This document shows positions 22,907 to 63,745 of a DNA stretch of 64,000 nt, piece after piece. A program made the position numbers and the translations under genes. Position 1 is the first letter of the stretch; each line of letters begins with the position of its first letter. This DNA is from Tubulanus polymorphus. Lineage: Eukaryota; Nemertea; Palaeonemertea; Tubulaniformes; Tubulanidae. Below the pieces are notes generated by a model. It worked only from the letters and a program-made list of their open reading frames with translations. It had not been told where the DNA came from and made no database searches. The DNA is taken from the NCBI RefSeq assembly GCF_964204645.1, contig NC_134030.1, positions 783,855 to 847,854 on the forward strand, in the 5' to 3' direction.

Positions 22907-22966
<60 letters not shown>

Positions 22967-23490
22967 TTGGTCATCAGTTAGCAGTCAGCAGTCATTGGTC
23001 ATCAGTCAGCAGTTAGCAGTCAGCAGTCAGCAGTCATTGGTCATCAGTCATCAGTCAGCAGTCAGCAGTCAGCAGTCATTGGTCTTCAGTCATTGGTCAT
23101 CAGTCAGCATTCAGCAGTCAGCAGTCTGCAGTCAGCAGTCTGCAGTCATTGGTCATCAGTCATCAGTCAGCAGTCAGCAGTCAGCAGTCAGCAGACAGCA
23201 GACAGCAGTAGGAGAAAATATAAAGAAAAAATAAAGATGTCAACTAAAACAGATTGTGGAAGCTGTTTGCACAGAGGTCCTGACCTTAGTGCTTTGTGAA
23301 TTAGTAAGTTCAAACTCATGACAATCTCAAATACCTCATATCATTTCTGTTTGATGACTCCTTAATTAGGAAAGATATCATGAAATATTTCTTTTATACT
23401 TTTTAAATTTTCTCATTTTGAAGAACTTTTTTATTTCGATGAATTCTGCAATTTGCAATCGATAGCTAAATAAAATAAAATTGAATTGAA
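22057..23490 (+). ncRNA. Predicted compact two-exon transcript with little coding capacity
   Basis: Predicted exon 1 (about 22057-22089) starts in a TOP-like pyrimidine run and ends at GTAAGC. Exon 2 starts at 22760 after TTTACATTTCAG and begins with the CAGTCAG-rich array. After the array a 20-codon ORF starts at 23237 (MSTKTDCGSCLHRGPDLSAL, stop 23297-23299). AATAAA follows at 23469-23474. This architecture suggests a real transcript, either non-coding or encoding a micropeptide. I do not recognise the peptide. A GTAAGT at 23305 could also be a further donor. Confidence 0.4.
22760..23215. repeat. CAGTCAG-rich compound minisatellite
   Basis: Runs of CAGCAGTCAG, CAGTCATTGGTCATCAGT and (GGTCAGC)n alternate without a fixed period. 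Long open frames through it (SAVSGQR and SQQSLVIS repeats) are a product of the repeat, not evidence of a gene. Confidence 0.9.
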
Positions 23491-26639: not shown

Positions 26640-27017
26640 TTCCAGATTTGGATATTTTAACAGCAATACAGAGAAACAAGTGTGAAGCAGTCTGCCATCA
26701 CAAAAGACAAGTGTGAAGCAGCCCGCGAAGTTCGTAACATCTTCGGAGCCTTCGTTGACAGGTGCGTTGACTCCCGTCGTGGGCCTGAGGAGCGAGCTCC
26801 TCCTTAACATGTTATTGTGCCACCTTTTGAGCTTGCTATTCCGCAGGAGGTGGTCTCTGCTCCTGTACACGTGGAGCAGGAGGTCGCTCCTGCCGACGTG
26901 GGGACCCCGACAGAGGCCCCACCGCTTCAGATGCCTGCATTGCGTCGGTCACCCCGTCATGGAGAAGGAATAACATGGAAAAGGAACAGCTATGTTTCAC
27001 ATAGTGCGATTCCTTAG
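26640..27017 (+). mobile_element. Possible LTR-retrotransposon polyprotein tail
   Basis: The plus-strand frame from 26817 ends PALRRSPRHGEGITWKRNSY and then a stop at 27015-27017. A proline-rich run followed by LRRSPR and an aromatic-rich end resembles the C-terminus of retrotransposon polyproteins, where LRRSxRxRxxPxW is common. The GC-rich composition contrasts with the AT-rich flanks. No LTR or integrase core is seen, so this is tentative. Confidence 0.35.
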
Positions 27018-27590
27018 GAAACTACAGATTGTTCAATGTTCCATGTTGCCCCCTCCCACAAATACTATGACGTTTATACGTCAAGTGTAAAACCATTATA
27101 TCGTTATTAACCTATTTGTTTTTATAATTACAGAATTAAAGATTAATGTAATATGACGCGAAAACTTGAATGTCCTTCACATGTGATCAGAGGGATTGAA
27201 AATGGTTTACTCATACGGAATAGAAATATAGATATATCATGTGAGATTGCCTCGAAAAAAAATTGCGCAAGAAAGGAAACCACAGCAAAGACTACGGTAA
27301 TCAATTTCATTACATTTCTAAGGTGTGAAAGTTCACTGGATCAGTGATCAATCCATGAATTTACGAGTTCTTAATTGAACATGCAAAAATCTGCAAAAAT
27401 GCAATGATAAAGAATCTTGGATAAAAAAGAATAGAATATCTCGGATTAGAGAATTAGTCGTAATCACTTCAGTGATCAGGTTTTATTGATTGATGTTGAT
27501 CTCTACTGATCCTAACGATCACCGGGATGAAGATTTGAGTTTAAGACACTTGTTAGATTAATCTGCATCTCTTGTTGAAATCAATAAGGT
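27018..27590. other. Stretch without a recognised feature
   Basis: AT-rich; short open frames only. Confidence 0.35.
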
Positions 27591-27735
27591 ATATGAGAGA
27601 GGTCTGAGATATGAGAGAGGAGGTTAGGGAGGTATGAGAGTTTATGGAGATATGATAGAGGAGTTTAAGGAGATATGAGAGAGGAGTTTAATGAGATATG
27701 ATAGAGGAGTTTAAGGAGATATGATAGAGGAGTTT
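27590..27735. repeat. Short purine-rich tandem repeat
   Basis: GGAGATATGAGAGAGGAGTT and close variants recur about six times at 23-30-bp spacing. Confidence 0.75.
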
Positions 27736-28555
27736 AAGCACACGTCAGTTTAAGGCTGTTGAGAGTGAATTATCAATAGATTTAAGACATCTACGATGAA
27801 GTTGTTTTCAAGAGGTCGATTATTCATATAGCAGTTAATCAGATCAGGTTCTCAGGTGCTTCCTTGGTCCCCAAAAACTGCATAAGTTGTATCAAAGTAT
27901 GTGACATACCGGTAACCTACTAATTTATTACATGAAAAGAGGCTACTTGTAGTTTCTCAGCCACTTTGCAATTATTGTTGTTAAGAGGTCACAAAATCCT
28001 ACCAGCATCATTAATAGATTTCTACTGAATAGTTTGTGTTGTAATTTTTGTGGTTCCAGCTTTTTTTCACTTTCCGAGATAGAACACAATTCCTAAATTT
28101 TGAGTCCTTCAGCGCTTAAATTCCAATTTATTACAAATTTTAAGTTTCCTAATCTTAACTTTTCATAAATTTGAACTTTTCCTATTCTATTTCTTCTCGA
28201 AGATTTCATTCCAGTTCTCAAAATTATTTGCGGTTTTTGAATGTCTGCGAAATATCCTCAATTATTTTCCTGGTTTCGTTTTTATCATTGCCCAAAATCA
28301 TATCTCATATGAATCATTATTACTATGATTGTATTCTTTCACTGATTGATTACAGGTCTCTTGGGGTTTGGTTCGATATTATGATTGATCAAGGTGATCC
28401 ATCTAAAACTATTTCATCTGTATCAATTTTGAAATATTCATATCTGAACAATTTCATTGATACTTCTAAACTGGTAATTCTGAAAAAATTCTAAGAACAA
28501 TTTTACACGTATCTTAAGACTATTCTAGAAACGTTTTAGATTATTTCAATTTTAA
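27736..28555. other. AT-rich stretch without a recognised gene
   Basis: A plus-strand open frame at about 28171-28494 has no recognisable domain and follows base composition. Nothing assigned. Confidence 0.35.
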
Positions 28556-29060
28556 TGTAAAACTATTTTATCTGAATTTTAATCAAGTATTTTATATCTG
28601 AATTTTAAACTATTTTATCTGAATTTTAAAATACCTGTGATATCTAAAAAGAATTTTATCTGAATTTTAATCTATTAAAGAAACTATTTTATATCTGAAT
28701 TTTAAAATACCTGTGACATCTAAAAAGAATTTTATCTGAATTTTAATCTATTAAAGAAACTATTTTATATCTGAATTTTAAAATACCTGTGATATCTAAA
28801 AAAAATATTCTATCTGAATTTTAGTCTATCAAAGAAACTATTTTATATCTGAATTTTAAAATACCTATGATATCTAAAAACTATTTCATCTGAATATTAT
28901 ACTTACTATTCTTTTTTAAACTATTTCATTCATATATATTTTAAAAACTATTGAATTTGATTATATTTTAAAAACTATTTTATTTGTTTATATTTTAAAA
29001 ACTATTTCATTTGTATATATTTTAAAAACTATTTCATTTGTTTATATGCTTTTAGAACAA
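28556..29060. repeat. AT-rich tandem repeats (CTGAATTTTAAAATACCTGT)
   Basis: A TATATCTGAATTTTAAAATACC block is repeated with about 82-bp spacing. It grades into shorter ACTATTTCATTTGTATATAT units by 28900-29050. Confidence 0.8.
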
Positions 29061-30325
29061 TGTTTTATTTGTATTTTAATACTAACTAAAATATCAATTT
29101 GATGAAATATTTTATATTTGACTATCACTGTGTATATTCGAACCCCAGTGATTTCATGAGAATGGAATAACTGAAGGTCCAGGTTTTATCACCGAATACT
29201 CTTTGACACAATTACGTGGTCCACAACACAGATATAAATAGTGGTTATATAAAAGGCCCATGTTGTATATAGTGCACGCATAAAGAGCTTTTACTCGTAG
29301 TTGATATAGGCTTAGGAAATGTGAAATGTGATTGAGAACTTTTTCTCATACTTTCTTTTCCTTTTTTCTTATAGTTTTTTTTTCAATTTTCTATCAGCAA
29401 TAGAAAATCCACTCATTTTCAGTCGGTGTTTCACTTAAAAAAAACAGTCCAAGTGTATTTTTCATATGATAATTTCAGCGTCTCGACGTAAGAAATTGAC
29501 GTAGATTATTGAAGCGTAGATTCAGAAAATCACAACTAGGTGGCGTGTCAGATTATTAGTTCATTGATATCAGATAGATATAATAGTAATATAACCACTT
29601 ATAGTACAAACAATAACAACATACTTTATTTTCCTGCACAATACACAAATAGTAGTAAAGTCCAATACTATCTTTGAATTAGAATTTCCTCTAGCCTAAA
29701 TGCTAGCGGTCATGTTATTAGTTTTATTAGACGTTATGTCGGCTTTTTCAAAACTTGTCTTTGAACGTAATGATAATCTATAGTATTTTTGGAAATGATA
29801 TAAATCAACGCTAATTTGATGTCATCATAACAAAATATGTCGCTGAAAACATCATATAAAAAATACACTCGGATTTTCTTTTAGAATTTATTTCGTTCCA
29901 TACAAAACCGTACTCAGTTCCACAGTTTGATTTGGATACAAGAATTTAAATGCATAAAATTGCACAACTGTTTAACTGGGATTTGTTAAATTGTGAGCAT
30001 GACGTTTATAATTAATCACTAGTGTGTTTCAAGTTAGCCTTAGTTTAAAATAGTTAGTTTTGGTTTTTTTAATCAATTTTCACTGTTTTAAATTTAGTTC
30101 GTTCCAGTTGATTTAAGTGTAGTTTAGTTTAAGTTAAAGTTCGTTTAGGTCAAGTTGACTAAATTGTAACTAATGTAAGTAAAGTATAAACCTTTGATAA
30201 ACTGAGGGTCAATTTATCTTATGATAAGTTACACTCAGGTTATTAATCAATAATCCCATTTGAGGTCTCATTATTTTATGCAGTTCAGAGATTTTCACCG
30301 AATAAAATAGTAACGTTTTAGAATG
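29061..30325. other. Stretch without a recognised gene
   Basis: A TATA-like TTATATAAAAGG at about 29244-29255 could be a promoter or chance in AT-rich DNA. From about 30025 TTAGTTTAAGTTAAAGT-like text is low complexity. Confidence 0.3.
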
Positions 30326-30328
30326 TGA

Positions 30329-31680
30329 TGAACTGAGGGTAAATTCATCATTGTTGAAATTACTCTCAGGATCATCATTAAAACAATAAATGAACTGAGG
30401 TTAAATTCATCATTGTTGAAATCACTCTTAGGATCATCATTAAAACAATGAATGAACTGAGGGTAAATTCATCATTGTTGAAATAACTCTCATGATCATC
30501 ATTAAAACAATGAATGAACTGAGGGTAGATTCATCATTGTTGAAATTATTCTCAGGATCATCATTAAAACAATGGATGAACTGAGAATGAATTCATCATT
30601 GTTGAAATCACTCTCAGGATCATCATTAAAACAATGAATGAACTGAGGGTAAATTCATCATTGTTGAAATAACTCTCATGATCATCATTAAAACAATGAA
30701 TGAACTGAGGGTAAATTCATCATTGTTGAAATTATTCTCAGGATCATCATTAAAACAATAAATGAACTGAGGTTAAATTCATCATTGTTGAAATCACTCT
30801 CAGGATCATCATTAAAACAATAAATGAACTGAGGTTAAATTCATCATTGTTGAAATCACTCTCAGGATCATCGTTAAAACAATAAATGAACTGAGGTTAA
30901 ATTCATCATTGTTGAAATCACTCTCAGGATCATCATTAAAACAATAAATGAACTGAGGTTAAATTCATCATTGTTGAAATAACTCTCAGGATCATCATTA
31001 AAACAATAAATGAACTGAGGGTAAATTCATCATTGTTGAAATCACTCTCAGGATCATCATTAAAACAATAAATGAACTGAGGTTAAATTCATCATTGTTG
31101 AAATCACTCTCAGGATCATCATTAAAACAATAAATGAACTGAGGTTAAATTCATCATTGTTGAAATAACTCTCAGGATCATCATTAAAACAATAAATGAA
31201 CTGAGGGTAAATTCATCATTGTTGAAATCACTCTCAGGATCATCATTAAAACAATAAATGAACTGAGGGTAAATTCATCATTGTTGAAATCACTCTTAGG
31301 ATCATCATTAAAACAATGAATGAACTGAGGGTAAATTCATCAGTGTTGAAATCACTCTCAGGATCATCATTAAAACAATAAATGAACTGAGGGTAAATTC
31401 ATCATTGATGAAATCACTCTCAGGATCATCGTTAAAACAATGAATGAACTGAGGGTAAATTCATCATTGATGAAATCACTCTCAGGATCATCGTTAAAAC
31501 AATGAATGAACTGAGGGTAAATTCATCATTGTTGAAATCACTCTCAGGATCATCGTTAAAACAATGAATGAACTGAGAATGAATTCATCATTGTTGAAAT
31601 CACTGTCAGGATCATCATTAAAACAATGAATGAACTGAGGGTAAATTCATCAGTGTTGAAATTACTCTCAGTTCATTGCA
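30329..31680. repeat. 62-bp tandem array, about 22 units
   Basis: TGAACTGAGGGTAAATTCAT starts units at 30329, 30391 and 30453, then regularly. Each unit also has GTTGAAATCACTCTCAGGAT. GGTTAAA and GGGTAAA variants form local blocks (30.77-31.14 kb is mostly GGTTAAA), showing that segments of several units were duplicated together. Confidence 0.97.
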
Positions 31681-32186
31681 AATATTTTAGCATTAACAGC
31701 AGTTTTAATTAATCCACTGTTTTCGTGTTATTGATAGTTACATCACAAGTTATAGAATAGATTGGGTTTTTTATTGTTGGATGAACTTGCAGTTAATTAG
31801 ATTAATTGATAATGAAATTACTCCCAGGTCATTGAAACATAATATTTAATGTTATCTTAATTTTAAGGATCTAGGGTTTACTAAATTATAATTGAAAGAA
31901 CCAATAGAATTTTAAATCAGTATATTTTACTTTTTCTTAGGTTTACTGTTTCTTAGGTTTACTGTTTCTTAGGTTTACTGTTTACCCCTTGTTTTTATAT
32001 TTTCTCACTGCTTTCAAGGTTCTCTTACACATTTCATGCAGCTTTTTCATTCAATATCAATATCATCCTCACTTGCCAGGTTTAAATTGTCGTCTGCCGA
32101 AGCTCATGCCAACATAAAGCCTGCCTGCTAGCTCTTCATTGGTCTACTACATTGCTCAAGATTTCTTGGGTAGACTGGTTACCACT

Positions 32187-32295
32187 GAGCGGCCACCAGT
32201 CTATGTATTAAGTCAATCAGATGCGTTGTTTTTCACCGGCAGTTTCGCTACACATCTGATTGACTAGATATAAAGATTGGTAGCCGCTTAGCAGC
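32187..32295. mobile_element. Hairpin with about 36-bp imperfect arms
   Basis: AGCGGCCACCAGTC...GTCAATCAGATG is answered by CATCTGATTGACTAG...GATTGGTAGCCGCT. The loop is about 35 bp. A small MITE or one end of a larger element is possible; the following 300 bp up to about 32620 are unassigned. Confidence 0.5.
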
Positions 32296-33424
32296 AACCT
32301 GTCGACCAGTGATATCTTGGACAATGTAAGACACCAATGAAGGGTTTGTAACCAGGGTTTGTGTAAGCGTGAGTGCCGGTGGGCGACAATAAAACCCTGG
32401 TGATTGAGGATGTATCGATGTACATATCAACACACAAAAAGCCAACCATAATAGGCGGCATTATTAGTGGGAGGTGCACCTGGCCTAATATGCCGCGCGG
32501 TAAAAACCACTCTTTCTGTGGTTGTGTAGTACCAGTAATTGGTGATCATCGAGTGAGTGATTGGCCTGGCCCAGTTATTCCATTCCGAAATCACTTGGGT
32601 TCCCATTATGATTGACATATATATGATATTTCATCAAAATGATCGACACATTTTATCTGTGCTAACACTATACTTGTACGTATTGTAACTTTTTGAATAG
32701 CTTTTTATTTGTATATATATAATATTTCTTTTTAGATTTTTCATTGATTTTGAGTTCTATTTGTTTATATTTTTTAGATATCTGTCAAACTTTGGATTTT
32801 AATGATTATTTCAAATATAATCTTTTAAAAACCTTTTTAATTTTCTAAACTTCATAATATCTATACATCAAATCGAACTATTTTAGTGCAAATTTTGATA
32901 TAGATTTAATTGATAATTAATATTTTTAATTCTATCGAATAATTTTAATATTCAAAACAACAGAATGAATGCATTCAATCTTAGTTTAATACTGATATCA
33001 CTTGCTGCATCTATTGTTTTAACAAGATTTTAACCTATAAGTTTGGAGCATTGATATTATTTCATTGCATTAGTCTCGCCTCCTCATTTATGGCTGGTGG
33101 TTGATTTCAGATTTACAACTCCTGATTACATTAATATTAATTCAATGCTACGTTATGTTTTGTTAGTTTATCTCATATAAACGTTTTCAAAGATGACTTG
33201 TAGAATTAAAATTGCAGAGGTTGAAATAATTATAGAATTTTATAGAATTGTCTAAAATACCTAGTAACATATAAGTAGTATAGCTAGTGTTCCTCTGTTT
33301 ACAAGTTGTCCTGTAGTACAACGTTAAACTGCCTCTTTTTAACAATACGTTTTATCCATACATTTTATCAGTGATTTTTATCTATTTGTCCTGTGGTATG
33401 ACGTTAAACTGCCTCTTTTTAACC

Positions 33425-33758
33425 CCTTCTTTTTTTACCTCTATCCTTTCCCTTTCTACCTCTATCCTTTCCCTTTCTGTCTCTATCCTTTCCCCCTCTG
33501 TCTCTATCCTTTTCCTCTCTCTATCCTTTCCCTCTCTCTATCCTTTCCCTTTGTCTCTAACCCACTAACTCTCTTCCTCTTTCTCTAACCCACTAACTCT
33601 CTCCCTCTTTCTCTAACCCACTAACTCTCTCTTCCTCTCTCTCTAACCCACTAACTCTCTCCTCTCCTTTCTTCCTCTCACCGCTCTCCTTCCTCCCTTC
33701 TCTCTCCCTTCTCTCTCTCTCCACACTCTCCTCTCTCTCTCTCTCTTTCTCTCTCCTA

Positions 33759-33785
<27 letters not shown>
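33425..33785. repeat. Pyrimidine microsatellite of macrosatellite unit 1
   Basis: Long CT-only strand: TCTCTATCCTTTCCC units, then CTAACCCACTAACTCTCT, then (CT)n. Equivalent tracts lie near 36195-36555 and 39065-39425. Such tracts can adopt triplex structures. Confidence 0.9.
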
Positions 33786-33789
<4 letters not shown>

Positions 33790-34477
33790 TGTAAATATTG
33801 TAAATATGTAGATAGTAGTTTTTATTTCTCTTGTAAATATTGTAAATTTGTAAATAGTAGTTTTTATTTCTCTTGTAAATATTGTAAATTTGTGAATAGT
33901 AGTTTTTATTTTTCTTTTAAATATTGTAAATATGTAAATAGTAGTTTTTATTTTTCTTGTAGATATTGTAAATTTATAAATAGTAATCCATTTTTTTTAT
34001 TAGTGTATATATATATATATTTATGATTTTAATTTTTTCTTTATATTATATTCCGGAATATTTTCTTTTTAAAACAATAATTTGTACTTTTTAAAGAAAA
34101 CGTTTCAAATTTTCAAACTAAAGTATTTATTTTTTAATTGAAACTATTTTAGAGGCGATTTTAATCATTTTCATCGGAACACACTTTATTCAATACAACA
34201 AAATGAATGCATTCAATCTTGGTTTCAAACTATTACTTTTCACTTTTTACATACATTCGTAGCATTGATACCATTACATTAGATAAGTCCCTCCTCCTTT
34301 TGATTTAATATTTGAAAGAAGATTCTAGTTAAGCATATATTACTAAGCGATTTACATCGAAGGCATTTTGTCACAGGCAAAAGAGAATTTGTCAAGTAGT
34401 AAGGATTGGATTGATGTTGCTTCCTGTGATCTCTGATTGTTAGCTTGCAAGTGTATTTAACCATCACTTGTTTGTAA

Positions 34478-34925
34478 ATGACTGTGCATACTTTCCCCTC
34501 ACTGGTCGCTGTTCACTTCATTGGTTGCAGCTATGAACAATCATCTCATCGATTGTGCATACTTCCCCCTCACTGGTTGCAGTTCACTTCATTGGTTGCA
34601 GCTATGAACAATCATCTCATTGATTGTGCATACTTTCCCCTCACTGGTCGCTGTTCACTTCATTGGTTGCAGCTATGAACAATCATCTCATTGATTGTGC
34701 ATACTTTCCCCTCACTGGTCGCTGTTCACTCCATTGGTTGCAGCTATGAACAATCATCTCATCGGTTGTGCATACTTTCCCCTCACTGGTTGCAGTTCAC
34801 TTCATTGGTTGCAGCTATGAACAATCATCTCATTGGTTGTGCATACTTTCCCTCACTGGTTACAGTTCAATCCATTGGTTGCAGCTATGAACAATCATCT
34901 CATTGATTGTGCATACTTTCCCCTC
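34478..34925. repeat. 71-bp array in unit 1 (CAGCTATGAACAATCATCTC)
   Basis: Units combine GGTTGCAGCTATGAACAATC, ATCTCATTGATTGTGCATAC and TTTCCCCTCACTGGTTGCAG. Homologous arrays: 37250-37625 and 40235-41370, with different unit numbers in each macrosatellite copy. Confidence 0.92.
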
Positions 34926-36524
34926 ATTGGTTGTAGTTTTCAGCTTAGGTTTGATGATGATAAATGCTGGTTTTATCAACGGCTCTACACGAGCAGTTGT
35001 CAAAATGTTCGAAGTCTTTGCCAGACTTCTTGTGGGTTCAATCTCTATAAGAAGACGCTTAAAGGGTTTCAATAGGAATACAGTTTGTTTACTCCAGCAA
35101 CAGATGTTCAAAGTCTAGAAAAGACTTGATATTTGCATATGATTCCTCTCTTCTCTCCTCTCTCATGAATAAGACACAAATCTGTTGTTGACTGCTGAAT
35201 CAATATTGATAGTAGCGAACGTTTAGTGTTCAGATATGATGAAAGTGTGTAAATTACTGCTAAATCAATTGGTGGTGATGAAAGTTTAGTGTTACAAAAC
35301 ACTGTGGGTGAATTACTGCTAAATCAATTGGTGGTGATGAAAGTTAAGTGTTACAAAACACTGTGGGTGAATTACTGCAAAATCAATTGGTAGTGATGAA
35401 AGTTAAGTGTTATAAAACATTGAAAGTGGGCGTCTTGAAACATTGATACGTGTACTTAAACAATGATAGATGTATTGAAACATTGATTTTAATGATTATT
35501 TAAACATTTTAAATATAATCTTAAAACTTTTTAATTTTCTAAACTTCATAGTATCTATTCATCAAATCTATTTCAGTTCAAATTTTGATATAGATTTAAC
35601 TGATATTCAATATTTTTAATTCTATCGAATAATTTTAATATTCAAAACAACTGAATGAATGCATTCAATCTTAGTTTGATCCGGATATCACTTGTTGCAT
35701 CTATTGTTTTAACAAGATTTTAACCTATAAGTTTGGAGCATTGATATTATTTCATTGCATTAGTCCCGCCTCCTCATTTATGGATGATGGTTGATTTCAG
35801 ATTTACAGCTCCTGATTACATTAATATTAATTCAATGCTACGTTATGTTTTGTTAGTTTATCTCATATAAACGTTTTCAAAGATGACTTGTAGAATTAAA
35901 ATTGCAGAGGTTGAAATAATTATAGAATTTTATAGAATTGTCTAAAATACCTAGTAACATATAAGTAGTATAGCTAGTGTTCCTCTGTTTACAAGTTGTC
36001 TAGTAGTACAACGTTAAACTGCCTCTTTTTAACAATACGTTTTATCCATACATTTTATCAGTGATTTTTATCTATTTGTCCTGTAGTACGACGTTAAACT
36101 GCCTCTTTTTAACAATACGTTTTATCCATACATTTTATCAGTGATTTTTATCTATTTGTCCTGTGGTACGACGTTAAACTGCCTCTTTTTAACCCCTTCT
36201 TTTTCTACCTCTATCCTTTCCCTTTCTACCTCTATCCTTTCCCTTTCTGTCTCTATCCTTTCCCTCTCTGTCTCTATCCTTTTCCTCTCTCTATCCTTTC
36301 CCTCTCTCTATCCTTTCCCTTTGTCTCTAACCCACTAACTCTCTTCCTCTTTCTCTAACCCACTAACTCTCTCCCTCTTTCTCTAACCCACTAACTCTCT
36401 CTTCCTCTCTCTCTAACCCACTAACTCTCTCCTCTCCTTTCTTCCTCTCACCGCTCTCCTTCCTCCCTTCTCTCTCCCTTCTCTCTCTCTCTCCACACTC
36501 TCCTCTCTCTCTTTCTCTCTCCTA

Positions 36525-36555
<31 letters not shown>

Positions 36556-39500
36556 TGTAAATATTGTAAATATGTAGATAGTAGTTTTTATTTCTCTTGT
36601 AAATATTGTAAATTTGTAAATAGTAGTTTTCATTTCTCTTGTAAATATTGTAAATTTGTAAATAGTAGTTTTTATTTTTCTTTTAAATATTGTAAATATG
36701 TAAATAGTAGTTTTTATTTTTCTTGTAGATATTGTAAATTTGTAAATAGTTATCCATTTTTTTTTATTAGTGTATATATATATATATATTTATGATTTTA
36801 ATTTTTTCTGTATATTATATTCCGGAATATTTTCTTTTTAAAACAATTATTTGTACTTTTTAAAGAAAACGTTTTAAATTTTCAAACTAAAGTATTTATT
36901 TTTTAATTGAAACTATTTTAGAGGCGATTTTAATCATTTTCATCGGAACACACTTTATTCAATACAACAAAATGAATGCATTCAATCTTGGTTTCAAACT
37001 ATTACTTTTCACTTTTTACATACATTCGTAGCATTGATACCATAACATTAAATTAGTCCCTCCTCCTTTTGATTTAATATTTGAAAGAAGATTCTAGTTA
37101 AGCATATATTACTAAGCGATTTACATCGAAGGCATTTTGTCACAGGCAAAAGAGAATTTGTCAAGAAATAAGGATTGGAGTGATGTTGCTTCCTGTGATC
37201 TCTGATCTGTTAGCTTGCAAGTGTATTTAACCATCACTTGTTTGTAAATGACTGTGCATACTTTCCCCTCACTGGTCGCTGTTCACTTCATTGGTTGCAG
37301 CTATGAACAATCATCTCATCGATTGTGCATACTTCCCCCTCACTGGTTGCAGTTCACTTCATTGGTTGCAGCTATGAACAATCATCTCATTGGTTGTGCA
37401 TACTTTCCCTTACTGGTTACAGTTCAATCCATTGGTTGCAAGTATGAACAATCATCTCATCGATTGTGCATACTTTCCCCTCATTGGTTGTAGTTCACTT
37501 CATTGGTTGCAGCAATGAACAATCGTCTCATTGGTTGTGCATACTTTCCCTCACTGGTTACAGTTCAATCCATTGGTTGCAGCTATGAACAATCATCTCA
37601 TTGATTGTGCATACTTTCCCCTCATTGGTTGTAGTTTTCAGCTTAGGTTTGATGATGATAAATGCTGGTTTTATCAACGGCTCTACACGAGCAGTTGTCA
37701 AAATGTTCGAAGTCTTTGCCAGACTTCTTGTGGGTTCAATCTCTATAAGAAGACGCTTAAAGGGTTTCAATAGGAATACAGTTTGTTTACTCCAGCAACA
37801 GATGTTCAAAGTCTAGAAAAGACTTGATATTTGCATATGATTCCTCTCTCTCCTCTCTCATGAATAAGACACAAATCTGTTGTTGACTGCTGAATCAATA
37901 TTGATTGTAGCGAACGTTTAGTGTTCAGATATGATGAAAGTGTGTAAATTACTGCTAAATCAATTGGTGGTGATGAAAGTTTAGTGTTACAAAACACTGT
38001 GGGTGAATTACTGCTAAATCAATTGGTAGTGATGAAAGTTAAGTGTTAGAAAACACTGTGGGTAAATTACTGCAAAATCAATTGGTAGTGATGAAAGTTA
38101 AGTGTTAGAAAACACTGTGGGTGAATTACTGCAAAATCAATTGGTAGTGATGAAAGTTAAGTGTTAGAAAACACTGTGGGTAAATTACTGCAAAATCAAT
38201 TGGTAGTGATGAAAGTTAAGTGTTAGAAAACACTGTGGGTGAATTACTGCTAAATCAATTGGTAGTGATGAAAGTTAAGTGTTATAAAACATTGAAAGTG
38301 GGCGTCTTGAAACATTGATACGTGTACTTAAACAATGATAGATGTATTGAAACATTGATTTTAATGATTATTTAAACATTTTAAATATAATCTTAAAACT
38401 TTTTAATTTTCTAAACTTCATAGTATCTATACATCAAATCTATTTCAGTTCAAATTTTGATAAAGATTTAACTGATATTCAATATTTTAATTCTATCGAA
38501 TAATTTTAATATTCAAAACAACTGAATGAATGCATTCAATCTTAGTTTGATACTGATATCACTTGTTGCATCTATTGTTTTAACAAGATTTTAACCTATA
38601 AGTTTGGAGCATTGATATTATTTCATTGCATTAGTCCCGCCTCCTCATTTATGGCTGATGGTTGATTTCAGATTTACAGCTCCTGATTACATTAATATTA
38701 ATTCAATGCTACGTTATGTTTTGTTAGTTTATCTCATATAAACGTTTTCAAAGATGACTTGTAGAATTAAAATTGCAGAGGTTGAAATAATTATAGAATT
38801 TTATAGAATTGTCTAAAATACCTAGTAACATATAAGTAGTATAGCTAGTGTTCCTCTGTTTACAAGTTGTCTAGTAGTACAACGTTAAACTGCCTCTTTT
38901 TAACAATACGTTTTATCCATACATTTTATCAGTGATTTTTATCTATTTGTCCTGTAGTACGACGTTAAACTGCCTCTTTTTAACAATACGTTTTATCCAT
39001 ACATTTTATCAGTGATTTTTATCTATTTGTCCTGTGGTACGACGTTAAACTGCCTCTTTTTAACCCCTTCTTTTTCTACCTCTATCCTTTCCCTTTCTAC
39101 CTCTATCCTTTCCCTTTCTGTCTCTATCCTTTCCCTCTCTGTCTCTATCCTTTTCCTCTCTCTATCCTTTCCCTCTCTCTATCCTTTCCCTTTGTCTCTA
39201 ACCCACTAACTCTCTTCCTCTTTCTCTAACCCACTAACTCTCTCCCTCTTTCTCTAACCCACTAACTCTCTCTTCCTCTCTCTCTAACCCACTAACTCTC
39301 TCCTCTCCTTTCTTCCTCTCACCGCTCTCCTTCCTCCCTTCTCTCTCCCTTCTCTCTCTCTCCACACTCTCCTCTCTCTCTCTCTTTCTCTCTCCTATCT
39401 CTCTCTTTCTCTCTCTTTCTCTTTGTCTTGTAAATATTGTAAATATGTAGATAGTAGTTTTTATTTCTCTTGTAAATATTGTAAATTTGTAAATAGTAGT

Positions 39501-41689
39501 TTTTATTTCTCTTGTAAATATTGTAAATATGTAAATAGTAGTTTTTATTTTTCTTGTAGATATTGTAAATTTGTAAATAGTAGTTTTTATTTCTCTCTTG
39601 TAAATATTGTAAATTTGTAAATAGTAGTTTTTATTTCTCTCTTGTAAATATTGTAAATTTGTAAATAGTAGTTTTTATTTCTCTTGTAAATATTGTAAAT
39701 ATGTAAATAGTAGTTTTTATTTTTCTTGTAGATATTGTAAATTTGTAAGTAGTAATCCATTTTTTTTATTAGTGTATATATATATATACATTCCGGAATA
39801 TTTTCTTTTTTAAACAATTATTTGTACATTTTAAAGAAAACGTTTTAAATTTTCAAACTTAAAATATTTATTTTTTAGTTGAAACTATTTTAGAGGCGAT
39901 TTTAATCATTTTCATCGGAACACACTTTATTCAATACAACAAGATGAATGCATTCAATCTTGGTTTAAAACTATTACTCTCTTTTTACATACATTCGTAA
40001 CATTAGATTAGTCCCTCCTTTTGATTTAATATTTGAAAGAAGATTCTAGTTAAGCATATATTACTAAGCGTTCTACATCGAAAACATTTTGTCACAGGCT
40101 AAAGAGCATTTTATATTATATGTCAAGAAATAAGGATTGGATTGATGTTGCTTCCTGTGATCTCTGATCTGTTAGCTTGCAAGTGTATTTAACCATCACT
40201 TGTTTGTAAATGACTGTGCAAATTTTCCCCTCACTGGTCGCTGTTCACTCCATTGGTTGCAGCTATGAACAATCATCTCATTGATTGTGCATACTTTCCC
40301 CTCACTGGTTTGCGATATAATTCCCCCTCACTGGTTGCTGTTCACTCCATTGGTTGCAGCTATGAACAATCATCTCTTTTGATTGTGCATACTTTTCCCT
40401 CACTGGTTGCAGTTCATTCCATTGGTTGCAGCTATGAACAATCATCTCATTGATTGAGGATTCTTCCCCCTCACTGGTTGCAGTTCTCTCCATTGGTTGC
40501 AGCTATGAACAATCATCTCATTTATTGTGCATACTTTCCCCTCACTGGTTGCAGTTCACTCCATTGGTTGCAGCTATGAACAATCATCTCATTGATTGTG
40601 CATACTTTCCCCTCACTGGTTGTCACTTCATTCGTTGCAGCTATGAACAATCATCTCATTGATTGAGGATACTTCCCCCTCACTGGTTGCAGCTCACTCC
40701 ATTGGTTGCAGCTATGAACAATCATCTCATTGATTGTGCATACTTCCCCCTCACTGGTTGCAGTTCACTCCATTGGTTGCAGCTATGAACAATCATCTCA
40801 TTTATTGTGCATACTTTCCCCTCACTGGTTGCAGTTCACTCCATTGGTTGCAGCTATGAACAATCATCTCATTGATTGTGCATACTTTCCCCTCACTGGT
40901 TGCAGTTCATTCCATTGGTTGCAGCTATGAACAATCGTCTCATTGATTGAGCATACTTCCCCCTCACTGGTTGTCACTTCATTGGTTGCAGCTATGAACA
41001 ATCATCTCATTGATTGTGCATACTTCCCCTCACTGGTTGCAGTTCACTCCATTGGTTGCAGCTATGAACAATCATCTCATTGATTGAGCATACTTCCCCC
41101 TCACTGGTTGCAGTTTGCTCAATTGGTTGCAGCTATGAACAATCATCTCATTGATTGTGCATACTTCCCCCTCACTGGTTGCAGTTCATTCCATTGGTTG
41201 CAGCTATGAACAATCATCTCATTGATTGTGCATACTTACCCCTCACTGGTTGTCACTTCATTGGTTGCTATGAGCTATGAACAATCATCTCATTGATTGT
41301 GCATACTTCCCCCTCACTGGTTGTCACTTCATTGGTTGCAGCTATGAACTATCATCTCATTGATTGTGCATGGGTAAATTACTGCAGAATCAACATCTCC
41401 TTCGAATGTAAAGACGAAATGTGACATTGACGAACAGTCAGTAACTTCAGGCGAGGCTGATATTGAGTTTTCTTCCTTTACCTTCTTCAAGTGTCAAAAT
41501 AGATGTGACATTTACTGAATTGTTGGTGACAAACAACACTGATTGCTGCTTTAGTTGATTACGGGTTGTTGATTACTGCTGCATCTCAATGGCGTCGCTG
41601 ATAACTGCCATAAACTACATCTCTCCTTTGGTGTAAGTGAAAATGTTAACATTCACATTTTCATCATTTCATTTGAATGTACAGTCACT

Positions 41690-42050
41690 CTGCGATATAT
41701 CTTAAATCTTCAGTTGGTAGTTCCATGTATACTGGCAAATCGTGTACAGTTAAAATGGAAAATCGCAATTGAGCAAACATGATTAAGTATCACAATTTGC
41801 CAGCATCTGTATACATGGAACCACCACCCGAAGATTGACATATTTACGTAGCTATCACATGACAGCATCTTTGACTATATACAGTTAAAATGGTAAAACG
41901 CAATTGAGCAAACGTGATTAAGGATCACAATTTGCCAGCATCTGTACACATGGAACCACCACCCGAAGATTGGCATCTTTGACTATATACAGTTAAAATG
42001 GAAAATCGCAATTGAGCAAATGTGATGAGGTATCACAATTTCTATACAGA
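41690..42050. repeat. About 118-bp repeat, three copies
   Basis: TACAGTTAAAATGGAAAATC then GCAATTGAGCAAAC and TGGAACCACCACCCGAAGAT recur near 41745, 41880 and 41988. It separates the macrosatellite from the next 59-bp array. Confidence 0.8.
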
Positions 42051-42057
42051 AAATGAT

Positions 42058-42835
42058 TGGTGATGAAAGTTAAGTTAAAGAAAGTTAAGTGTTACAAAAC
42101 ACTGTGGGTGAATTACTGTTAAATCAAAAGTTGGTGATGAAAGTTAAGTGTAACAAAACACTGTGGGTGAATTACTGCTAAATCAAAAGTTGGTGATGAA
42201 AGTTAAGTGTTACAAAACACTGTTGGTGAATTACTGTTAAATCAAAAGTTGGTGATGAAAGTTAACTGTTACAAAACACTGTTGGTGAATTACTGTTAAA
42301 TCAAAAGTTGGTGATGAAAGTTAAGTGTTACAAAACACTGTGGGTGAAATTCTGTTTAATCAATAGTTGGTGATGAAAGTTAAGTGTTACAAAACACTGT
42401 TGGTGAATTACTGTTTAATCAAAAGTTGGTGATGAAAGTTAAGTGTTACAAAACACTGTGGGTGAATTACTGTTTAAATTAAAAGTTGGTGATGAAAGTT
42501 AAGTGTTACAAAACACTGTGGGTGAATTACTGTTAAATCAAAAGTTGGTGATGAAAGTTAAGTGTTACAAAACACTGTGGGTGAATTACTGATTAATCAA
42601 AAGTTGGTGATGAAAGTTAAGTGTTAAAAACACTGTTGGTGAATTACTGTTAAATCAAAAGTTGGTGATGAAAGTTAAGTGTTACAAAACACTGTGGGTG
42701 AATTACTGTTAAATCAATTGTTGGTGATGAAAGTTAAGTGTTAAAAAACACTTTTGGTAAATTACTGCTAAATCAGTCAGTAGTGATAAATTAGTGATTA
42801 AATAAGTTAAATGTTACAAAACACTGTGGTTGAAT
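42058..42835. repeat. 59-bp array with AGTGTT/AACACT hairpin
   Basis: GTTGGTGATGAAAGTTAAGT then GTTACAAAACACTGTGGGTG repeats at 59-bp steps (42130, 42189 and onward), about 13 units. Each unit holds the inverted pair AGTGTT-N4-AACACT. Closely related units lie at 35270-35420 and 37930-38290 in the macrosatellite. Confidence 0.93.
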
Positions 42836-43114
42836 TAGTAAGAAGTTTAGTGTTAAAATTTAAGTTTAATCCCTTCTCCTTCCCTTCTTGAATTGACAAG
42901 TAAATTCTGACATTAACTGAATTGTCAGTGACTTGTACTCCACTTAAGGAGTGATAAAATTGTCAGCATCTAAACTCTGATGATGAGGTTAACCAGTTTC
43001 TAAGTCTGTGAGCCGACAGTGTAAAAAACTGTTAGAATTCAAATTGTTTTAAACATCTTCAGAAAGATGGTTGATCATCGTAAACACTGGTGAAAACAAT
43101 TGACATCTCAATTT

Positions 43115-43255
43115 GCACTTGACTTCCCACTTTGCACTTGACGTCTCACTATGCACTTGACGTCCCACTATGCACTTGACGTTTCACTTTGCACTTGACG
43201 TCTCACTTTGCACTTGATGTCTCACTTTGCACTTGACGTCTCACTTTGCACTTGC
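43115..43255. repeat. 19-bp tandem array with TGACGTC
   Basis: CACTTGACGTCTCACTTTG recurs at 19-bp steps (43211, 43230, 43249 among about eight units). Each unit presents a CRE-like TGACGT half site. Confidence 0.88.
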
Positions 43256-43559
43256 ACCGACGCATCAATTGCACTAAACAGCACTGGCACACCCGCGGGT
43301 CCATGCGCATGGTAAGCAAATTGATCAGCATGCAGCATGCCATCTTTGTGTGTGGAAAGAATTTACAAACAGCTGTGAGTTTAAAATTAAGGAACATTAA
43401 GAAACGTATTATTTGTATCATTCCTTGTACAATCTCAAATAACGATGATGTAAAGAAAAATATAATAGCAATTTTATGATAGTAAAAATATCAAAATGTC
43501 AAATAGTTAAATATCAATTTGTAAAACAAGAGGAAAGAGGAAGATGAAAGTACCAGAAA

Positions 43560-45190
43560 GAGAAGTGTTGGATTGGTGTCTGTTGTCAGCAGAAATCTGA
43601 GGTACTCTACTGAGGAATCTCCACGCCCCAAACAGAGAGTTCAAGATGATACTGAAAGTTCCTGAGGTTCTGAGAAATTTCACTAAGTAAAGACTATAAA
43701 TCAGGTATAGTATAAATTGCTATAAATTTCTTTGTTGATAAGAATGTTCTCAACTAGGACGGTAAGTTAGTATTACATGTATTTCATATTTCCCTGTTGT
43801 AGCGTGTATTGATTTGGTCATCAAGTACAAAATACCAAACGATTGACAGGAAACATTCAGGATTGTTCCAGTTACTGTTGAGAAATATTCAAGGTGTCAC
43901 GAGTGTGAATCAACTATAAGTCAGGTAAATGTGTACTTGATATAAATTTCTTTGCAGGAACAGTCGACTCAAAGAAGATGGTTACTTTTATTTTATGTAT
44001 TTTTGTTGTAGCCAGTGGACTGTTGTTGTTAGAGACGCTCAAAACCAGAGGAAAGGAAACATCAGAGTTCAGGAAGTGTTGAGCAAATTCCTCAAGGTCC
44101 GAGTCATGAATCTGAATTGACTATAAATCAGGTAAAATTGAAATTAGATGAATTTTGTTTTTATGAAGAGTCATGAATGAAAATCATAGTTTATATTTAG
44201 TACATTGTTGTTGTAGTTAGTATTGAGTTATTCGTCACACAATACCAGATATCAAGATGGAAACGATACCAATGATGCAGATCAATTTGTTCATGAAAAA
44301 CCTAAGAGTCATGTGTCTGAATCTACTAAAAATCAGGTATAATCGAAATCTATTTTCAAGAAGAGCCTCAAAAATGATATCATTATTCATATTTTGTGTT
44401 TTGTCATTGTAGTTTTGAGCTTGTGGTTGGCTGTAGAATATCAGCTGACAGGAAAAGATCAAATCAGAGATGCTGACCATTTTCTCTGTCAATTCAGTGA
44501 CTGTTACCACGAGTTATCGTAGTTCCAGAGATGCCGACCAATTTCTCCGTCAAATCGGAACTTTCAGTGTTTGTTACCGCACGTAGTTCCAGAGATGCCG
44601 ACCAATTTCTCCGTCAAATCAGAACTTTCAGTGTTTGTTACCGCGAGTTATCGTAGTTCCAGAGATGCCGACCAATTTCTCCGTCAAATCAGAACTTTCA
44701 GTGTTTGTTACCGCGAGTTATCGTAGTTCCAGAGATGCCGACCAATTTCTCCGTCAAATCAGAACTTTCAGTCATTGTTACCACGAGTTAGCGCAGTTCC
44801 AGAGATGCCGACCAATTTCTCCGTCAAATCGGAACTTTCAGTGTTTGTTACCACGAGTTATCGTAGTTCCAGAGATGCCGACCAATTTCTCCGTCAAATC
44901 GGGACTTTCAGTGTTTGTTACCGCACGTTAACGTAGTTCCAGAGATGCCGACCAATTTCTCCGTCAAATCAGAACTTTCAGTGTTTGTTACCGCGAGTTA
45001 GCGTAGTTCCAGAGATGGCGAGGAATTTCTCCGTCAAAAAGCAGAGAGATATTTCACTGTTGAGGAATTCTCTGTGTTAATAATCATGACTTGTCATTTT
45101 AAGTTTATTTATCATAAGAGCTGATTGATAGCTTCAGTATAGGTTGAATGTAAATACAAATTGTACATCTATTGAAAAATAAATATGAAT
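43560..45190 (+). ncRNA. Predicted non-coding transcript made of duplicated exon cassettes
   Basis: Cassettes of about 120 bp lie between GTTGTAG acceptors and AATCAG/GTA donors: 43803-43924, 44012-44131, 44217-44336, with a first ending at donor 43705 and a terminal one from 44413. Cassette-plus-intron spacing is about 205-220 bp. Frames are interrupted (for example the second ends in CAACTATAA), so protein coding is unlikely. The terminal exon would run through the 70-bp array to AATAAA at 45178-45183. Splice sites are preserved across the copies while the cassette bodies have diverged, which suggests selection for splicing. Confidence 0.45.
44510..45035. repeat. About 70-bp array, eight units
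   Basis: AGTTCCAGAGATGCCGACCA then ATTTCTCCGTCAAATCAGAA repeats at 64-70-bp steps. The last unit is mutated (GATGGCGAGGAATTTC). Confidence 0.93.
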
Positions 45191-45912
45191 TGATGGTTTG
45201 ATTGGCTGGATTGTTGTTGAATCTGATTGTGGGTTATCAATTACTGATTTGCTACGACTTGTTTTAAATGCATACATTTCAAGGAGCTTATTTTTGTTGT
45301 GTTGGTTAAATAATTTTGTAAATGATAATTGAGGACGTCAAACGTTGGTTTAGAGTTTTGTTACAGTGATTAATGTGAGCACTGTGAGATTGTACTCATA
45401 ACTTTGCGTTTGTTTTTGTAAATACATTTATTTCTTTAAAATGATTGTTTTTGTGTTGCATCACATTCTGACGATGTTAAACTCTTAACTCAAGATACAC
45501 AGTTTGCTCTTGACTTGTTTGATTATTATATTGATGAATACATTGATTTTATGGTGTTTGATTATCTGTTGAACTATTGTTTATGAATTCCAATTGAACT
45601 ACTAACCACTAGTTGTTTTAACATCAGTATCATCAGTGGTCAGTTGTTCGCTACAAATTGTATGTGTTATTTTTTCTTTATATAATGTACGGTGGACTCT
45701 CTCTTAACTGGAATCATTTCAAGTCTTGTTACTTTTATCCTGGAGTTATCATTCTCCAAGCTTACATCGGACTAAACACATTGAACTATTTCATTGAAAT
45801 TCTTTTATCTGCAGGTGACAATTATCACCTTGTCTTAATTGATTCGAGTTAGTCAAGTCTATTGTAGATAGATTCTTTTTTCTCTGGAAGTGAATTGAAT
45901 GAAATGAGACGA
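45191..45912. other. Stretch without a recognised gene
   Basis: AT-rich. A plus-strand open frame at about 45658-45852 is hydrophobic, without recognisable features. Confidence 0.35.
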
Positions 45913-46071
45913 CAGTTGAACCTCATTGAACCCTCGATTCTGTTCAAGACAAAACCTGTTTATTACGATCAGATTTCCAGCAGGTCCCGGCAAATTTACA
46001 TCGATCCTTATTTGGATAATACAACAATTTCACTTCGCCCATAATATTTGTAGTTAACTAAGGTTCCACTG
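45913..46071. mobile_element. Degenerate mariner/pogo-like MITE
   Basis: The left end CAGTTGAACCTCATTGAAC and right end AAGGTTCCACTG plus TA match the family at 16986 and 49651, with more decay and no clear left TA. Confidence 0.5.
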
Positions 46072-46128
46072 TAAAATGAGGACTTCAAACCATTCTCACT
46101 GTTGTAGAGACTTTCTTTATTAAAGTTA

Positions 46129-46361
46129 TCAGTCTGATTACTCCTAGATTATATTAATGCATGTATCAATCTGCAGCAGCTTGGCACTACCCTGAGGATA
46201 CTACAGTGCCCACCCATACCCTTCGGACTTGTCACCTTCTACATAATCTGAAGTGATCTTGAAACACAGCTTGAACCATCCACCCCTTTCAGAATGTCTG
46301 GGGTCCAGGTTACAGATTGACACCTTTCACTACGACTCGGCTAGGAGTAATCGGACCGATC
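46129..46361. mobile_element. About 230-bp element with 20-bp terminal inverted repeats
   Basis: TCAGTCTGATTACTCCTAGA at the left is answered by CTAGGAGTAATCGGACCGAT at the right. The interior is not coding. A MITE of unknown superfamily is the simplest reading. Confidence 0.5.
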
Positions 46362-46559
46362 TTGTCCCATTACTCTAAGGTCTCGGAGACTTTCATGTAT
46401 TTGACTATTTATGCAGCTACCAACCTGCATTTAGGACACTAATTCATCCTTTAATGGAATAATAATCAATTTGTCTTTTCTCAATTGTTTCCTTGAGTAT
46501 ATTCTGTACTACACTGAAAAATAACTGTACCCGGTACAAACTCCATCGATAGTTACTCT

Positions 46560-46885
46560 AGCTATTTCTGATCGGCCCTGATGCTGTTTAGAGGATGTAC
46601 AGGGGTGTCCCGGGTTCGAACTCAGTAATTACTGATACTGATTCCGAGTGGTCCTGATGCTGTATAGAGAAGAACAGGAGTGTCCCGGGTTCGAACCTAG
46701 TAATTACTGACACTGATTCAGATTGGTCCTGATACTGAATAGAGGATGTACAGGGGTGCCCCGGGTTCGAACCCAGTAATTACTGACACTGATTCAGAGT
46801 GGTCCTGATGCTGAATAGAGGATGTACAGGGGTGTCCCGGATTCGAACTCAGTAATCACTGATATTGATTCAGAGTGGTCCTGGT
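46560..46885. repeat. 76-bp tandem repeat with tRNA-B-box-like core, four units
   Basis: TTCGAA lies at 46615, 46690, 46766 and 46842. Each unit reads GGATGTACAGGGGTGTCCC then GGGTTCGAACCCAGTAATTA. GGTTCGAACCC is a good RNA polymerase III B-box match, so the unit may derive from a tRNA-type SINE. Confidence 0.8.
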
Positions 46886-47145
46886 GGAGGCCGGTGTCCC
46901 GAGAGGCATTTCCTTATGATTCCAATAAGAGTAAAGACAACGATGCAGTTAAAAGATAACGACAGTTGTAACGATTTGGAATATTAGTTTTTTTCTGAAA
47001 TTAGAATTATTTAGACACGATTTGAATTGTTGAAGTCACGGATCCCAGACGCCGGATCATCGTGGCGTTACCACCTAACTTCTTTATTCAATATAGTATA
47101 TTTGTATTGACTTTGACTGTACCGTGCTGCCACCGTTTCTAAAAT
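46886..47145. other. Stretch upstream of NKAPD1 promoter
   Basis: No feature assigned before the YY1-like motif. Confidence 0.3.
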
Positions 47146-47159
47146 CCAAGATGGCCGCG
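47146..47159 (+). promoter_or_regulatory. YY1-like promoter motif (CCAAGATGGCCGCG)
   Basis: CCAAGATGGCCGCG matches the AAGATGGCGGC-type YY1 site found at many animal housekeeping promoters, often just downstream of the start site. It lies about 370 bp upstream of the NKAPD1 start codon in GC-richer DNA. The transcription start is not determined. Confidence 0.5.
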
Positions 47160-47249
47160 CCCACGAACCTGCGAAAAAAATAAGCATGGCGAAAGCGCAA
47201 CTTGCTAATTAACATGTTTGACCTTATTTGACATGCATCGAGAATGTAA

Positions 47250-47526: not shown

Positions 47527-50500
47527 ATGTTGTCACGACATTCAAAGGTTTATCTTAAAAACGTTATTCGTCACACTGATGCCCATAACAAGGTAATCCG
47601 CCGTGCGGCCCCTCCCCTCGCTCTCCCTCCCGACCCGGCGCCGTCGCGTCATACCAAATCATCAAAGTCGCAAACGGCAACGCTGTAGTCAGTAACCTGT
47701 CTGTGGTTTAGTTTCACAATCGGATATTTTTGTATGAAATCTTTGTCAGCCAATTTGACTGACGAGTAATTTGCCTGGCATTTCATTGTCTCTTAAGATA
47801 TCCGTCTAATTTTTGTTGTAATCGACGCACAACAGATTCGTAGTTTGTCTGATACCTATAACACCTCACCTGACGATCTTAATCCATGTGCAAATCGGCC
47901 GTAAAGTGAGAGTAAATTTCCGTCGGGTCAACAGCTGCCATTTTGAAAATTACTGGAGGTGCTGGCACCTGTGGACTGAGGCCAGGACAACAGCACAAAC
48001 TAACGAAGCGAAACGACGAAATTGAAAAAAATTAAGAAATCAACACTTATTCACATTTTTCTTTTACCAGAATTTATTATAATATAATTTAATATGGAAA
48101 ACCTGAAGATTTGAAATATAAGTTGGAAAACCATCAAAAATAAAAATTGTCGTTTCGTCTTGAAAGTTTTATATAAATCCTTGTAGGTCCCCTTGTCTTA
48201 TCATGCCACATGTGCAATACAGAGAAATGGCGGCCAATGGCGAAATTGGTGGAGAAATTAATTAATTTCTCAAAATAATGTTGATTAACCACTCGAAACA
48301 TACATAAAATTGGATTATTTCGAAAGGTACCTGTGTTAGATTGTGAATTAAGCCATTAATTGTGGACTGAAGTGAAAAGAAAGTATATTTTTGAAGTGTT
48401 ACTTTTTTCAACCGTGTTTTGGTCCTTGTCATCCCTAACGTTGGTATAAGCCCATCCGATTATAAAAAGCTTACCACCAACGATTAGGTAACTAACTACA
48501 AACGCTGCTGACACTGAAGTGAACGCCAATCGGTTCCATCGATCCAGGCCAGAGCCTGCTCGGCCCTGACGCACTCGTCGACATAGGCATGTTTGATGTT
48601 GTTGGTAACGAAGTTAATATGTTGTTGGTTATTAAAAACCTATTCTCGCGTTGCATATTCGAAAATTTGTTTTCTAGTCCACCACCCCCTAAATCCACCT
48701 TGACTGTTGGTCAAAGCCAAACGTGTGGTTTTGAACCTGATGGCATCGAGACTCGACCCGACAAACAAGACTCGAACGCTTATTAGCCAATCAGATATCC
48801 CGTTTTATTTGAGCCCGGGATTTCCCAATTTATAGTTCTTCCGTGAAATTTACCTCAGCGATTATACAACGTGCGGACGGTCTAGTGTGGTTCAGTGAAG
48901 CGATGCCTATAGGTTCGAATCCCCGTCAGAGGGAGGAACATGGCAGAGTCAAACGTTGTCATCAGGTTCGAATCCCTGCCAGGGATCATGGATGAAGTGA
49001 CATTTAAAATTATATCGGCATATTTTATAATCTCTTTATAATTGCGTTTCTAAAAATGGTTAAATTTGTCGATAGATAAATAAAATATTGAATTGTATTT
49101 AATTGAAGGTCGTTGAAGAAGACGAAATGTGGAAAGATCATCATAAACGTAAACATCATGGTCGTCACGGCGATAGGAGTCGTTCTCCTGCGTCCTCGGG
49201 GAGACTGTGGTCGCGATCGAGCGGCGGAGTGAGGTCGCGAGTCGACGAGGTTCCTCACACGTACATGGATCGTATTGTATCTCCGATATCTACGAAAAAA
49301 CTCAGCGTCGCCAAAAACAATCGTCTCATCGCCCCCGACGACAAGTATGTATCTCGTATTGTTGCGTAATGTTTGACGAAATCTTCGTACGCTTTCTAGT
49401 ACGACATTTAAAACAGCGAGGCAGAAAACCCTACTGATCTTCTTAGTTATTTGTGAACAGCTAATTTAATTGCGTTGAATGTAATATTTCATGGGGGGAT
49501 AAATTCACCCTTCCAACCCCTTCTAATTTTGCGCAGAAAATTCAACAAACGAATGAATTCAGATGACCTGAAAATGGTCAGAAACCCCCCCCCCCCCTCC
49601 CCCCTTTTATACTAGATTAAGTTCTCAAGGGTGAGCCCCAAAGCCCGCTACAGTGGAACCTCGTAACAGTGAACTTCACTGGACCTGAAAATCTGTTTGT
49701 TATGAATATGATAGTTTGTTATATCCCAGTACGAAATTAATCGGATTGTCTTAATATCGTTGAATGCAAGTTTGTTAAGAGGTTCCACTCTACGATGACC
49801 TGTGGCGCTCGCGTGGCCAAATTTGCCCTTTTCTTGACAAATAAAGAGTTCACCCCTTCAAACAATCCTATAGATCCACCCTTGTATTAATCCACCAGTT
49901 TAGAACAGTAACATTTTAAGTTTGTAGTTGACTTTTATTAAACGCCCCTCAAATTGAATACCGGTAATTGTGGTCCTGGTGGAACGCTGATCGGTAAATA
50001 ATTATATCTCTGATTTGTGTTTATTATTTTTGAAGGTGGGGTCATAGCGGTTTCGCCGAGTTATATCCTGAAGATTGTCCCGAATCTGACAGACCGGCGT
50101 CGTCGAACCAACAACAATCGGACGAACCGATAAAACATCGTCGTGCGCGCAAACGCTCGTCGTCGCCGCCGTCGAATTTCAACTCGGGTGCACCGGCGGC
50201 AGCGCCACCTCGTGGACGACGCCCGAAACATTTACAACAACCGTGGAACGATCGTATTCATAGCGCGTTCCGCGGCGTTGAGCCGAGCGAGAGAGAGAAA
50301 AAAGAGGAGAAACGTTTGAAGAGTAAAATAGTGATGAAAACTACGACAACGACGAAACAATCGCAAGAGTCGACGCCGGTGACACCAGCAGCAGCGGCGG
50401 ATACTTCACGGGAACGAGGCGAACGTAAAGATCGTAATTATAGACGACAAAATAGAGATAAGAGTTTGGATAATGAGAAATCCCGGAAACAGAGCCAACA

Positions 50501-63464: not shown

Positions 63465-63479
63465 GTAAGTGGTTTATGG

Positions 63480-63745
63480 GGTCATTCATTTATTACGTAC
63501 GCATTAGGGGAGGGGGAGGTGTCAGTGCAATTGTGTACTGTAATGCTTTATGGATATGAAAAATGGCTGATTTTGCGTACAGAGGGGGAGGGGGGGTTGA
63601 GAAATCTCTGCTGACTTTGGGATCATTTATTCATTACGTACGCATTAGGGGAGGGGGAGGGGTCAGTGCTATTGCGTACTGTAATGCTTAATGTATATGA
63701 AAAATGGCCCATTTCGCGACCGGAGGGGGAGGGGGGTTGAAAAAT
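63480..63745. repeat. Two tandem copies of a ~140-bp G-rich element
   Basis: CATTTATTACGTACGCATTA then GGGGAGGGGGAGG and TACTGTAATGCTTTATG-like text, ending GGGGGAGGGGGGTTGA, occur at about 63485-63600 and 63625-63740. This type of sequence looks like part of a DNA-transposon end, but I cannot assign it. It lies in the next VPS26C intron. Confidence 0.7.

Follow-up and report, generated by a model that had tools for sequence, protein, structure and literature searches.

The region studied here probably (with a likelihood of about 70%) belongs to a multicopy family of RNA genes which are spliced, do not code for protein and carry repeats. It lies in a window of 64,000 nucleotides (C6:783855-847854) of the Tubulanus polymorphus genome (267.8 Mb, 77 contigs), in which some 61 related loci were recognised, an approximate number taken from the best-scored matches. 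The loci form three families and are mostly located near chromosome ends. The layout common to the three families consists of a promoter-like element, cassettes, a terminal exon with a tandem array, a poly(A) signal and a 76-bp array carrying a B-box-like motif. Transcription, splicing and function of the loci are what we infer from their comparison, conservation being judged between copies within one genome.

The original prediction had proposed at least three cassettes of 120-122 bp with a period of 205-220 bp. Three complete cassettes of that size are indeed present (Table 1), but they belong to a total of four homologous exon-intron units, extending over 43.6-44.4 kb, and the unit as a whole begins earlier, at the promoter-like element; the measured spacings of 220, 207 and 205 bp agree with the proposed period. 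All four exon ends read ATCAG or GTCAG in front of GTA, much as expected from the AATCAG/GTA donors first described, while the GTTGTAG acceptor was found at three positions, the remaining one being CATTGTAG. As had also been proposed, the series ends in a 70-bp array and an AATAAA. All four units proved to be mutually alignable across exon and intron. The first exon has no acceptor-like end in register upstream of it and finishes in the motif common to the cassette ends; paralogous copies of this 32-nt motif end at 43704, 43924 and 44336, with just the last ~14 nt kept at 43704.

Table 1. Coordinates of the predicted gene and of the associated repeats in the window. Donors lie at the first position of each intron, and acceptors end at its last position.
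Feature	Position	Strand	Remarks
~20-kb minisatellite-rich block	26969..47196	+	Common to the family-1 copies compared (blastn of four other copies vs. the window)
19-bp array TTGACGTCTCACTTTGCAC	43100..43254	+	Upstream of the promoter-like element; families 1 and 2, partly family 3
Promoter-like 16-mer ACACCCGCGGGTCCAT, palindromic core ACCCGCGGGT	43289..43304	+	Genome-wide exact matches
First exon	43305..43704	+	3' end set by donor; start inferred
Second conserved element TTTGTGTGTGGAAA	43345..43358	+	Downstream of the 16-mer, families 1 and 2; alignment of 31 upstream regions
Intron 1	43705..43802	+	98 nt
Cassette exon 2	43803..43924	+	122 nt
Intron 2	43925..44011	+	87 nt
Cassette exon 3	44012..44131	+	120 nt
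32-nt exon-end motif CGAGTCATGAATCTGAATTGACTATAAATCAG	44100..44131	+	Mean identity of 74-80% between families
Intron 3	44132..44216	+	85 nt
Cassette exon 4	44217..44336	+	120 nt
Intron 4	44337..44412	+	76 nt
Terminal exon	44413..45200	+	Runs to just beyond the poly(A) signal; 3' end inferred
70-bp minisatellite	44493..45038	+	7.9 copies, within the terminal exon
AATAAA poly(A) signal	45178..45183	+	Intact in 22/24 readable family-1 copies
76-bp array with tRNA B-box-like GGGTTCGAACCC	46577..46883	+	3' of loci in all three families

Some 30 additional copies of the 856-bp cassette region were found in the genome, with identities of 80-96%, and the copies of family 1 are ~90% identical to each other. 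Families 2 and 3 were reached by following the sites of the exon-end/donor 16-mer GACTATAAATCAGGTA, which occurs 168 times in 267.8 Mb vs. 0 and 1 times for the reversed control. Family 2 comprises ~28 loci, including a tandem series of seven at C6:3.90-4.09 Mb with a spacing of 28-34 kb, and family 3 has two loci, both on C8. The arrays of the terminal exon are family-specific, with units of 70 bp in family 1, 28 bp in family 2 and 29/60 bp in family 3. Most copies possess six introns, and four are found in the window copy and its two nearest relatives; such differences indicate that cassettes are gained or lost as exon-plus-intron units. One locus (L036) has three nearly identical 206-bp units consecutively, which shows the duplication process to be recent.

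Family 1 has 29 loci on contigs whose length is known, and none of them is more than 4.9 Mb away from an end, where 44% would be expected within 5 Mb; for family 2, 88% of the loci are within 5 Mb. These figures count loci rather than independent events, many loci having arisen by segmental duplication. The loci point both towards and away from their nearest end. An internal-chromosome locus at C2:9.70 Mb (L042), considered as a parent gene, was rejected, being a short, 5'-truncated family-1 fragment with an intron; adjoining it, at 1661-2281 of this locus, are fragments which on visual inspection are reminiscent of a Penelope-like reverse transcriptase.

The gene sits close to the right end of the ~20-kb block, and the dispersal of such blocks in mixed orientation, together with the ~90% identity within family 1, would suit a selfish, non-autonomous element with its own promoter, whose splice signals are kept through youth or because they aid its spread. 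However, neither terminal inverted repeats nor target duplications nor an enzyme encoded by an element were found in the block, and copy boundaries are ragged, with no sharp common ends, as far as the ends of four copies tell. Moreover, family 2 has its tandem cluster on C6, and between-family conservation is concentrated in gene signals instead of unit ends. We consider such an element unlikely.

Concerning the splice sites, all 22 testable columns are invariant among the 16 aligned copies of family 1, vs. 75% of 1139 neighbouring columns, with P values (0.0017; 0.0009 when base-matched) that are modest at the column level. In the same copies, GT dinucleotides elsewhere in the region are invariant in 46/81 cases and AG dinucleotides in 50/86. 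Over all families, the 173 unit matches gave 172/172 GT and 153/153 AG, counts biased upwards since the model by which the matches were detected includes the splice sites. In family 2, L031 and L032 share one cassette without donor (GT to TC, position 4652 of L031), in which the exon-end motif is kept; as the loss is identical in both loci, it must be old. The last acceptor of L018 is also lost. Splice-site retention is strong, not absolute, and the sites appear to be under constraint.

These results bear on the notion of a degenerate minisatellite with splice-like motifs arising by chance, which might be entertained in a window with 101 tandem-repeat rows. It is most improbable given that the splice columns are invariant, the promoter-like element is linked and the AATAAA is intact, and that three families with unrelated arrays share the gene layout.

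The promoter-like element is tightly associated with the family. The sequence ACACCCGCGGGTYCAT has 42 exact matches genome-wide, and each of the 42 precedes a family locus by 68-320 bp in sense orientation, with 22 belonging to family 1, 18 to family 2 and two to family 3. In its 16-mer context, the core is fully family-specific (42/42). The absence of the 16-mer elsewhere and its fixed place in families whose exons are no longer alignable suggest that it may be the promoter of the gene family.

The original prediction held every frame to be interrupted. This applies in general, but one frame of cassette exon 4 is open. A conserved protein frame joining the cassettes, named beforehand as contrary evidence, was sought and none was found. 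Protein coding was rejected on stop-to-stop ORFs, spliced-ORF lengths vs. shuffles, codon phase and pN/pS, all without signal: the longest spliced ORFs exceed the 95% level of shuffles in a few single copies, with no shared constrained frame, and codon-phase variation in the aligned copies has no third-position excess. Of the 23 exon indels, just 3 have a length divisible by three, the reading frame being ignored. For four ORFs of the window, Pfam gave just two matches, Vps26 and DUF4131, both below threshold. There is no conserved protein-coding frame.

In several copies, a short ORF (METIPMMQINF...) nevertheless recurs, extending from exon 4 into the terminal exon. It was rejected as coding: several indels keep its frame, yet its pN/pS of 0.79 is the same as in the other two frames (0.85 and 0.76). 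This ORF could be seen as a trace of a protein-coding family with duplicated exons of ~40 codons, a family which has since decayed and been dispersed through segmental duplication, in which case the exon size near 120 nt would be a phase-0 length and the recurring ...SELTINQ/...STKNQ peptide, in which one frame ends, a remnant. Such a decayed origin is quite unlikely: besides the uniform pN/pS and the paucity of frame-keeping indels, stops occur in the exon bodies of all three families, and decay is not expected to erase exon bodies yet spare the promoter, splice sites and introns.

When families are compared, the similarity of exon bodies does not exceed that of shuffles (mean z of 1.6-1.8), the last 32 exon nt reach z values of 7.3-8.8, and introns are clearly homologous (3.8-8.1). 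Together with the invariant splice columns, this agrees with the earlier statement that splice sites were kept while bodies diverged. Within family 1, divergence is 3.2% for introns vs. 4.1% for exons, the introns being not more diverged, and among its recent copies, the last 12 exon nt are not better conserved than the remaining exon.

The conservation of introns between families led us to consider an intron-encoded RNA. A host gene with an intron-borne small RNA product, as in snoRNA host genes, would account for introns being conserved and exon bodies not. Against it, Rfam gave nothing at gathering score (the best sub-threshold, snoRNA-like matches had an E value of about 3), a search of 13 aligned introns revealed no consensus structure, the introns measure a mere 76-98 nt, and conservation extends to the exon-end motif. 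We regard such a host gene as highly unlikely. A tRNA scan gave no match. Known snoRNA host genes (SNHG) are spliced and non-coding; their transcripts show poor conservation and their introns are valued (PMC11405852, PMC7719101); they carry intronic snoRNAs, whereas no snoRNA or structured RNA was detected in the introns of the window family.

A non-coding gene grown by exon duplication, as originally put forward, fits the tests run (splice-site invariance, no frame, a linked promoter-like element and exon-body drift); duplication stands, except that the duplicated unit is the exon plus its intron and that the locus is one of about 61. In such a spliced RNA gene, RNA polymerase II would start slightly 3' of the ACCCGCGGGT element, at ~43.29 kb. 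The primary RNA would be spliced via tandemly duplicated exons of ~120 nt into the minisatellite-bearing terminal exon and be cleaved after the AATAAA, at 45.18 kb. Cassettes would increase in number by unequal exchange of the exon-plus-intron unit, and selection would retain the introns with their splice sites, the promoter element and the final ~32 nt of every exon, but neither exon bodies nor frame. The mature RNA would then contain one short exon-end motif for each cassette and, behind these, a tandem array.

Most likely, such an RNA would serve RNA-binding proteins, or chromatin close to chromosome ends, as a multivalent platform. For repeat-bearing architectural RNAs, multivalent binding of RNA-binding proteins is discussed in PMC7151548. 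A bolder proposal, which we regard as possible rather than probable, is that of a chromosome-end RNA gene superfamily in which the palindromic promoter element, the introns and the 32-nt motif are functional, exon bodies and minisatellites are free to change, and cassette number sets valency. No description of such a gene family was found in the papers searched, and it may have been annotated previously.

Single loci such as hsr-omega have already shown that the architecture of a non-coding RNA gene can outlive its sequence. Here, ~60 copies in three diverged families represent natural replicates of which parts a gene must keep and which it may lose, and they offer direct tests of whether a structural RNA owes its valency to repeated exons and of whether genes of this kind act near chromosome ends. 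In layout, the family resembles hsr-omega of Drosophila and mammalian Firre, and in placement and copy number lncRNA-TARE of Plasmodium, no homology being claimed; to our knowledge, none of the three combines all the features of the window family.

The hsr-omega gene (93D) is non-coding, is spliced and ends in a tandem-repeat tract, and its architecture is kept as its sequence diverges (PMC9865238). The window family likewise has terminal-exon arrays, in all three families, and introns better conserved than exons. However, hsr-omega is a single locus with one main intron and no repeated cassettes, vs. ~61 loci and tandem exons here, and it is a proven, heat-shock-inducible RNA, whereas the window family, compared by architecture alone, is a predicted one. 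In Firre, many exons consist of the local repeat RRD (in human, 7 of the 13; PMC4820808), just as a repeated unit makes most exons here (four units in the window copy, six in most copies). Firre differs in being a single locus with repeats over a long stretch and RRD kept inside the exon, while in the window family the exon bodies drift, and it is the exon ends, splice sites and introns that persist. As for lncRNA-TARE, Plasmodium falciparum has multicopy homologous loci at its chromosome ends, with 22 telomere-associated lncRNAs (PMC3218844). These are transcribed towards the telomere, whereas the window family has mixed orientation and copies up to several Mb from the ends.

Among the surroundings of the gene, the motif of the 76-bp array is what we take to be the consensus of the tRNA B box, and the array could bind TFIIIC. 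It was rejected as a family-specific part, with ~1153 sites scattered genome-wide. Elsewhere in the window, an open frame of 660 aa rich in Arg/Ser/Lys/Glu repeats (50316-52298), without Pfam match, resembles on visual inspection an exon from a gene for an SR-rich nuclear protein, and an exon-like ORF at 63273-63614 has a Vps26 match below threshold. An inverted repeat at 32064-32412, with 163-nt arms that are 72% complementary and a 23-nt loop, lies inside the 20-kb block. A unit of ~2.7-2.9 kb is present in three tandem copies at 33198-42000 (markers at 33198, 35888 and 38759), each with the same minisatellite set, and ~65 copies of the 7-bp unit TCAGCAG occupy 22756-23209.
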